Assembly (NCBI GenBank): GCA_944393005.1
Contig: CALXYO010000001.1
Location: 248,001 to 312,000 of the forward strand
DNA from: an uncultured Spirochaetales bacterium
GTDB lineage: Bacteria; Spirochaetota; Spirochaetia; Sphaerochaetales; Sphaerochaetaceae
Direction of reading: 5' to 3'
Length of the DNA: 64,000 nucleotides
Of the stretch, positions 55,778-58,103 are shown piece after piece. The notes beneath the pieces were generated by a model. The model worked only from the letters and a program-made list of their open reading frames with translations, made no database searches and was not told the DNA's origin. Each line of letters opens with the position of its first letter. Positions within the stretch are counted from its first letter, which is position 1. The translations under genes were made by a program, and so were the position numbers.

Positions 55778-56314
55778 TCAATCAGCTTTCCCGCCGTCAT
55801 AAAATCTTTCATCATTCTCATCGATACTTCCGATCACACGGCATGGATTTCCATAGGCCAGAACAGATGAAGGAATGTCTTTCGTCACAACAGACCCGGC
55901 ACCGATCACAGTGTCATCACCTATACTGACACCGGGAAGTATTGTCACACCAGAGACGATGAAGCAGTTGTTTCCGATATGGACAGGCTTGTTGTACTGC
56001 GCTCCTTTCTGACGCAAGACTGAAGATAAAGGATGTGTTGCCGTTGCAATTGTGACACATGGCCCCAGCATTGTGTGATCTCCGATGAAAATATGTGTGT
56101 CATCAACAAGCGTAAGATTGAAATTCGCATAGCAGCCCTCCCCGAAATGAACGAATTTACCAGCCCAGTTTGCCCTGAAAGGAATTTCGATATAAGCACC
56201 ATGTCCGAAATATTCAAACATCTCTCTCAGCTTATTCTCCCTAAGTACAAAATCGGCAGGGTCCGTATCATTGTAATCCTTGAGCATACACAAACGCTCT
56301 TTCTGCTCCTGCAT
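55778..56314 (-). CDS. Sugar O-acetyltransferase (LbH, maltose/galactoside type), 5' end unusual
   Basis: 178 residues from the first ATG. Left-handed beta-helix with hexapeptide repeats: NFNLTLVDDTHIFIGDHTMLGPCVTIATATHP near residues 75-105 includes the catalytic histidine, then NNCFIVSGVTILPGVSIGDDTVIGAGSVVTKDIP. The maltose-acetyltransferase N-terminus (TGRHYKLNDSEI, matching the usual SGELY...D-x-E) lies in frame upstream of this ATG, from a CTG at 56354-56356, with no ATG, GTG or TTG before a stop. So the start is either CTG or lost. Confidence 0.85.
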   Translation of the reverse strand: MQEQKERLCMLKDYNDTDPADFVLRENKLREMFEYFGHGAYIEIPFRANWAGKFVHFGEGCYANFNLTLVDDTHIFIGDHTMLGPCVTIATATHPLSSVLRQKGAQYNKPVHIGNNCFIVSGVTILPGVSIGDDTVIGAGSVVTKDIPSSVLAYGNPCRVIGSIDENDERFYDGGKAD

Positions 56315-56401
56315 TATCTCACTGTCATTCAGCTTGTAATGCCTGCCTGTGTGCAGTATATCGTTTTGCTCATGCTGTCCATTATAAGGAGGAAAACCAG
56401 T

Positions 56402-56431
56402 TTACAAGAGTCCTTTTTTATGGTTTATATA
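56402..56431 (+). promoter_or_regulatory. Promoter of the 6S RNA gene
   Basis: TTACAA (56402-56407), an 18-base spacer and TATATA (56426-56431), 7 bases before the G at which the closing stem begins. Confidence 0.6.
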
Positions 56432-56438
56432 ACTCATA

Positions 56439-56600
56439 GGGCAGATGCATAGGTCTCTTGGCTCAAACTTTAAAATATGGAGACCGGTGAATAGAAGGAC
56501 TGAATTGCTCCTACCTCTTTACAATGTTTAAAGGAACAGAAAATCCTGCTCAACTAGGCCTCCCCCTTGAACATCAGGTTCAAGAGTACGCATTCTGCCC
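56439..56600 (+). ncRNA. ssrS: 6S RNA
   Basis: A regulatory RNA that mimics an open promoter and binds sigma-70 RNA polymerase. The ends pair: GGGCAGA (56439-56445) with TCTGCCC (56594-56600), extended by TGC/GCA across a one-base bulge. The 3' side has a perfect hairpin CTTGAAC/GTTCAAG (56566-56584), which is the same hairpin, in the same place, as in E. coli 6S (CCTTGAAC...GTTCAAGG). The 5' side GGTCTC...GAGACC and TTGGCTCAAAC resemble the 5' central-bubble side. About 162 bases, close to normal size. A promoter with correct spacing precedes it and a T-rich stretch follows. A covariance search was not possible. Confidence 0.82.
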
Positions 56601-56778
56601 GCTTTAATTTTTACATCACAACAGTTCGTGCAATGATTATGTATTATGCATATATGAAGTAGGATTTTGAATCTTAAGCCGATTTAAGGAATCTGTGAAA
56701 ATCTCATAATTCGTGGACAAACCGTGGACATTTTTCTGAAATGCATATCGGACAGGTTCTGTCAAACACAAGCACTGG

Positions 56779-56802
56779 CTGCTGTCTACCACATGGCAGC
56801 AG
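56779..56802 (+). other. Hairpin in the gap between 6S RNA and the TPR gene
   Basis: The 249-base gap 56601-56849 holds no gene. CTGCTGTC/GGCAGCAG, 8 bp, 8-base loop, is followed by ATTCTTCTTTTC and may attenuate transcription into the TPR gene. A direct repeat GTGGACA-N4-GTGGACA lies near 56713-56731. Confidence 0.4.
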
Positions 56803-56849
56803 ATTCTTCTTTTCACTCTGCCTTTTTCTTTATATACTTCACACTTGCA

Positions 56850-58103
56850 ATGAGTAAGTTAGATACAATCCAATTCATAAGTCTTCCCAAAAGCATGGAA
56901 GAGAAAATAACAGGTTTCAAAATTGACAGTTCAGTCCCGATTCCAGTTCAGTTGAAAGAAGGACAGAAACATCTCAGGGCCGAAGATGTGACAATAGAAT
57001 CCATATGTGCGGGAATGCTTGTGGTCATCGCATACAGGGAGAATGACAAGAACTTCAATTATTACAAGAGTTTCGTTCTTGCCTGTCAGCCGGATGCGAT
57101 ACAGGAGCTCAACGCCGCTGCAATCACAAAGGAAAAGCAGAAGGACTACCCTTTTGCCGAACAGCTGTTCCTCACCGTATACCATATGCTGCCGCAGAGT
57201 GCCAGCTGTATAAATCTTGCGACTCTGTATTCATCCTGGGCTGTCTATGAAGCTGATGCGAAAGATGAGAAAGCAGAAGATTTCTATTTGACAAAATGCC
57301 TCAACACACTGGAAGACGGACTTGAAAGATTCGGCGAGAATGAGGATATCCTGTGCGAGCTGGGTTCATTCCACACATATCTTGGCAATCTTGAAACCGC
57401 CCAGGATTATCTTGAACGGTACATGAAAGTTGCAGAAGAAGGTGAGAAAAAGCAGAAAATGAAGAAAATGCTGCGCGATGTCACCTTCCGTCTTGATTCA
57501 GATCAGGAGATCAAGCAGGCATATGATTTCATGATGCTCAATGAAGAGGACAAGGCCCTTGAAGTAATTGAGAAATTCATAAGCAAGAATCCCAGAATAT
57601 GGCACGGATACTTCATCAAGGGATGGGCATTGAGAAAACTCAAAAGATATGCAGAAGCGGAAGAAGCCCTTCTCAAGTGCATTTCCTGCGGCGAATCCAA
57701 TGCAGATATCTACAACGAGCTTTCAATATGCGCTCTTGAAAAAGGCAACAGGGAGCTTGCAAAAAGCTATCTTGATGCGGCTGTCGACCTTGACGGCGAG
57801 AATCTCACACTGGCCTCGAATTTGGCATTCCTTCATCTGATGGATGAAGACTACGACCAGGCAAAAGAATGGATTGAGAAATGCCGTATTCTCGCACCTG
57901 AAGACAGACAGGTGCAGTCAATGATGAAGGAATATACCGAGAAAACAGGAGAAGAATTCGGTCCTGTAATAAGAGAAGAATATGTTCATGATCCTGAAGG
58001 AAAGGAAAAAGACCATGAACATCATCATCACCATCACGAACATGGAGAGCACTGCACTCATGATCATGATGAGGACGCTGAAGAGGATGAAGAAGAAGAA
58101 TGA
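56850..58103 (+). CDS. Tetratricopeptide-repeat protein with histidine-rich tail
   Basis: 417 residues, cytoplasmic, no signal peptide. An N-terminal all-beta domain (about 1-75) precedes TPR-like helical pairs over residues 80-365, for example NLETAQDYLERYMKVAEEG, then KRYAEAEEALLKCISCGES and DYDQAKEWIEKCRILAP. The last 31 residues are a metal-binding-like tail with six consecutive histidines, then HEHGEHCTHDHDEDAEEDEEEE. It overlaps tsaE by 4 bases (ATGA). ATG 56850 has no good ribosome site. Function unknown; chaperone or scaffold. Confidence 0.8.
   Translation: MSKLDTIQFISLPKSMEEKITGFKIDSSVPIPVQLKEGQKHLRAEDVTIESICAGMLVVIAYRENDKNFNYYKSFVLACQPDAIQELNAAAITKEKQKDYPFAEQLFLTVYHMLPQSASCINLATLYSSWAVYEADAKDEKAEDFYLTKCLNTLEDGLERFGENEDILCELGSFHTYLGNLETAQDYLERYMKVAEEGEKKQKMKKMLRDVTFRLDSDQEIKQAYDFMMLNEEDKALEVIEKFISKNPRIWHGYFIKGWALRKLKRYAEAEEALLKCISCGESNADIYNELSICALEKGNRELAKSYLDAAVDLDGENLTLASNLAFLHLMDEDYDQAKEWIEKCRILAPEDRQVQSMMKEYTEKTGEEFGPVIREEYVHDPEGKEKDHEHHHHHHEHGEHCTHDHDEDAEEDEEEE

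Follow-up and report, generated by a model that had tools for sequence, protein, structure and literature searches.

A divergent and very probable 6S RNA gene (ssrS) in an uncultured spirochaete, from a family in which Rfam-based annotation mostly misses 6S RNA

6S RNA is a widespread and ordinary bacterial regulator that sequesters RNA polymerase in starvation, and its presence in the spirochaete considered here, one of a group of gut spirochaetes, is therefore expected. As established in E. coli and B. subtilis, it imitates an open promoter and associates with the housekeeping RNA polymerase, from which the synthesis of a pRNA on its central bulge frees it again (summarised in PMC8414754). 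A spirochaete example is the 6S RNA of Borrelia burgdorferi (Bb6S), which was predicted by Barrick et al. 2005, seen by RNA-seq and found to be upregulated by the stringent response (PMC6041397); it belongs to another family.

The locus lies in a window of 64,000 nucleotides, which is the whole stretch of DNA analysed here, and an initial annotation had placed a 6S RNA gene in one of its intergenic gaps. That proposal has been borne out by homologs at the same locus in the family that exceed the Rfam 6S cut-off, by a match to a clade-specific model and by covarying helices; its strand, extent and position beside a TPR gene agree as well with what was found. The gap almost certainly holds, at 56436–56608 on the + strand, an ssrS gene making a 6S RNA, with a predicted length of about 165–180 nt. 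The analysis established the gene, its strand, its structure, its homology to 6S RNA and its single copy per genome, and on sequence grounds it appears to be a genuine, divergent member of the known 6S family. The features are as follows.

56401–56431, + strand: candidate promoter, with −35 TTTACA at 56401–56406, −10 TATATA at 56426–56431 and a spacer of 19
56436–56608, + strand: very probable 6S RNA gene (ssrS), conserved core 56439–56600
56439–56445, + strand: closing stem, 5′ strand GGGCAGA, pairing with 56594–56600
56454–56466, + strand: 5′ strand of the central bulge, UCUCUUGGCUCAA, almost invariant and predicted to template a pRNA with product UUGAGCCAAGAGA
56479–56485, + strand: base of the apical stem, 5′ strand GGAGACC, pairing with 56557–56563, with compensatory changes in the genus
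56497–56546, + strand: apical stem, GGA 56497–56499 with TCC 56544–56546 and GCTCCT 56507–56512 with AGGAAC 56532–56537
56557–56563, + strand: base of the apical stem, 3′ strand GGCCTCC, pairing with 56479–56485
56566–56584, + strand: hairpin CUUGAAC-AUCAG-GUUCAAG within the 3′ strand of the bulge, invariant in the genus and at the Rfam consensus position
56594–56613, + strand: closing stem, 3′ strand UCUGCCC (56594–56600), then the T-rich tail, from sequence and covariation
56850–58103, + strand: TPR protein gene, a syntenic neighbour and not part of the RNA (Pfam TPR_2, E = 2.7e-15)

In the predicted fold of the RNA, a closing stem leads into a large central bulge, whose 5′ strand is conserved and whose 3′ strand contains a hairpin, and beyond the bulge lies an apical stem with interruptions. 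In sequence, the core of the RNA measures 162 nt and is accompanied by a conserved −35-like site upstream and by a T tail. A protein-coding reading of the gap was tried and rejected: no ORF of at least 60 aa runs across the RNA, and the sole ORF touching it (56033–56452) is antisense to the acetyltransferase gene upstream and stops within the first bases of the RNA.

Compared with the E. coli ssrS type, represented by the Rfam model RF00013 (6S / SsrS RNA), the locus is alike in predicted size and in the order of its elements, which runs from the closing stem through a central bulge whose 3′ strand carries a CUUGAAC-GUUCAAG hairpin to the apical stem, whereas its closing stem is some 13 positions shorter and unrelated in sequence, and its score is 11.9 bits against a gathering cut-off of 46.4 bits. 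The initial annotation had named this model as its check and the lack of a significant match as grounds for rejection, and, read literally, a non-significant match is what the search returned. A gathering-level Rfam scan of the window yielded three tRNAs only and no 6S, and at E <= 5 over 56200–56900 the two matches, to snoRNA and miRNA families, are attributable to chance, with 6S below the limit. With a permissive limit in a narrow region, 6S was the sole match among 4227 Rfam families, and its score came from a full-length alignment of all 187 model positions; in the whole genome, RF00013 has no match at E <= 10 other than this locus. The gathering score is a detection threshold and not a biological feature, and, because relatives carry orthologs at this locus that pass the cut-off and other evidence points the same way, the criterion of no Rfam match is wrong for this clade: the sequences indicate that the cut-off is an invalid refuter here, and taken literally it would wrongly reject a real 6S gene.

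The 6S identity is supported by homology through intermediates, which leads from the window sequence to the same-locus homologs of the family and from these to sequences above the cut-off. A DNA search of the family matched the window sequence in 14 more members of the genus and, outside it, in 11 further genera; the matches have the RNA at their centre and for the most part leave out its flanks. The RNA keeps its position in 15 of the 16 genomes of the genus, this one counted. Same-locus homologs exceed the RF00013 cut-off in five genomes (G016, G020, G029, G031 and G034), all except G031 being DNA matches to the window sequence as well; the passing locus of G031 likewise lies beside a TPR gene. 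Motifs in common with the homologs are UCUCUUGG-UCAA, UUGAAUUGCUCC, GGAACA-GAU and CUUGAAC-loop-GUUCAAGAG. A covariance model (R1) built from 14 sequences passing the Rfam 6S cut-off, none of them from this genus, matched this genome at 56429–56612 with 57.8 bits (E = 1.8e-14), the runner-up reaching 12.7 bits (E = 0.54); the E-values of R1 are rough owing to a shortened calibration, yet the gap to the runner-up is large. The same model found exactly one match in each of 126 of the 139 family genomes (71 of 75 among those of high quality), whereas only 8 of the 139 exceed the RF00013 cut-off, so that any Rfam-based claim that these spirochaetes lack 6S RNA would be an artefact. Rfam annotation misses 6S systematically in this family, and the usefulness of the result lies in this annotation gap.

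At class level, R1 matched 98 of 248 genomes. A wider model, R2, was applied to the family genomes without a match, and no clear 6S was found by R1 or R2 in G021 (g7), G027, G161 and G162 (g13), three of which are more than 90% complete, at about 1.2 Mb; loss of the RNA or its further divergence is possible in these. G054, a class member of 1.2 Mb in 9 contigs, gave no match to RF00013 and weak matches only to R2 (best E = 0.106), and its 6S RNA, if any, is outside the reach of these two models. The Rfam-positive 6S RNAs of other Spirochaetia families (L029-L031, L033-L036, L038, L041) share with this locus a near-identical bulge strand UCUCUUGGGUCAA, the apical UUGAAUUGCUCC...GGAACA, the hairpin with GUUCAAGAG and, in some, the TPR gene alongside, but their closing stem is CCUGCGGUG/CACCGCGGG, in contrast to the GGGCAGA, CCAAGAC or CCGGGUGGC types of this genus. 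By a pattern scan of named genomes, the genus falls within Spirochaetales and includes Bullifex porci and Candidatus Aphodenecus pullistercoris, and since a Bullifex porci record is among the matches, the prediction is testable in a named strain.

The 5′ bulge strand shows little or no variation across the family and resembles its counterpart in the Rfam-positive 6S RNAs. Opposite to it, the hairpin pointed out in the initial annotation (CTTGAAC at 56566–56572, loop ATCAG, GTTCAAG at 56578–56584) is a perfect 7-bp hairpin found in all members of the genus, and Rfam aligns it to the same position as in its 6S consensus, in keeping with the relative place claimed for it. Being invariant, it has no covariation of its own, and an alternative pairing of CUCUUG (56455–56460) with CAAGAG (56581–56586) is conserved as well as the hairpin that it excludes; as both are invariant in the genus, conservation alone cannot choose between them, and the competing pairing may aid the refolding that would free the polymerase. 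By homology, the RNA would mimic an open promoter and bind the housekeeping RNA polymerase holoenzyme in nutrient shortage, the bound RNA would lower transcription from housekeeping promoters, and the copying of a short pRNA from the bulge by the polymerase would release it; both polymerase binding and pRNA synthesis are attributed to this RNA by analogy. The putative template, 56454–56466, is predicted to be read from a start opposite an A at about 56466–56467, giving UUGAGCCAAGAGA... In other bacteria, pRNAs are reported to carry a GG as a hallmark, either at position 4/5 or at 5/6 of the product (PMC8414754). This is a reported hallmark and not a defining feature of 6S RNA. Its absence from the predicted product is a point against the 6S reading, but the start of that product was itself guessed from the alignment, and its exact site is uncertain.

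Most members of the genus share the −35-like TTTACA upstream of the RNA, and promoter matches average 8.8 of 12 in the genus against 6.8 in shuffles. In this genome the −10 is weak, and the candidate was not among the sites given by the automatic sigma-70 scan. At the other end, the T-rich tail is present as CGCTTTAATTTTT 3′ of the RNA core.

The pairing of the two ends is likewise as annotated (GGGCAGA/TCTGCCC, 7 bp), and both it and the 3′ hairpin appear in the minimum-energy fold, with z = −2.2 and 3 of 200 shuffles as stable. Folding energy alone is a modest signal, insufficient as proof of an RNA gene, and it is this modesty that would favour chance pairing in intergenic DNA without any RNA gene; all the comparative evidence contradicts such a reading, conservation and covariation already refute it, and its probability is vanishingly small. 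Among 15 distinct sequences of the genus, standard pairs make up 96.8% over five helices (shuffled mean 89.2%, 0 of 500 as high), falling to 56% when the partners are slid by one column, and changes on both sides affect 11 pairs in 31 cells, compared with a shuffled mean of 9.9 cells. The closing stem is the clearest compensatory case, with six of its seven pairs replaced on both sides within the genus and the variants GGGCAGA/UCUGCCC, CCAAGAC/GUCUUGG and a one-column-shifted CCGGGUGGC/GCCACCCGG. The apical stem, with its conserved GAATTGCTCC and GGAACAGAA, is covarying and conserved across the family, its base holding one A-C mismatch in this sequence. Over 40 sequences, double-sided changes affect 26 of the 35 pairs, in an alignment that had itself been fitted to the model. 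RNAalifold did not retain the closing stem when run on the full set of 26 sequences, owing to differences in stem sequence and length, and genus-level and model-guided alignments were used to recover it; as 6S RNA is nearly palindromic, opposite-strand matches also arise in alignments. The closing stem, the central bulge and the apical stem with its internal loops are all present, the helices being supported by covariation. The shortness of the closing stem and its lack of the CUGCGGUG/CACCGCAG sequence count against 6S, and together with the very low RF00013 scores across the genus this shortness could suggest that the 6S RNA has decayed and lost its function here. Compensatory changes that preserve the stem pairs, a hairpin and bulge strand that are invariant or nearly so, and the presence of the gene in every genome of the genus except one that is 62% complete make such decay extremely unlikely.

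The neighbourhood raises the further possibility of another structured RNA, for example a cis-regulatory leader of the TPR gene, that came to resemble 6S RNA by convergence. The RNA is flanked upstream by a divergent maltose acetyltransferase-type gene and downstream by the TPR gene, tsaE and a TsaD-family gene, in this order; a TPR homolog adjoins it in nearly all sampled loci of the family, and its position upstream of this gene in the same orientation in most of the family is what a leader would predict. Against this stand the same-place homologs above the Rfam 6S cut-off, the TPR gene of L051, which is divergent and on the strand opposite the RNA, and, at the present locus, some 240 bp, a terminator-like hairpin (56779–56802) and a separate promoter-like site (56810–56838) before the TPR start, and we regard a leader as very improbable. 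With the RNA taken as 6S, a functional tie to the TPR protein is unlikely though conceivable: the protein might, for example, be a partner of 6S or of the sequestered polymerase, or its gene might be controlled through the 6S transcript. Three other families (L030, L033, L034) also have a TPR homolog immediately 3′ of an Rfam-positive 6S gene. This shared synteny adds support to the 6S identity, and the linkage across several Spirochaetia families is best regarded as a lead.

As for the TPR gene itself, it most likely starts at the ATG at 56850 and not at the mechanical ORF start at 56724. The terminator-like hairpin between 6S and this gene carries a T-rich tail and lies about 170 nt past the 6S end. 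In the promoter-like site, TATACT (56833–56838) ends 11 nt before the likely start codon, so that the TPR mRNA may be leaderless or nearly so, and TATATACTT, from the 56810–56850 region, recurs in several relatives.
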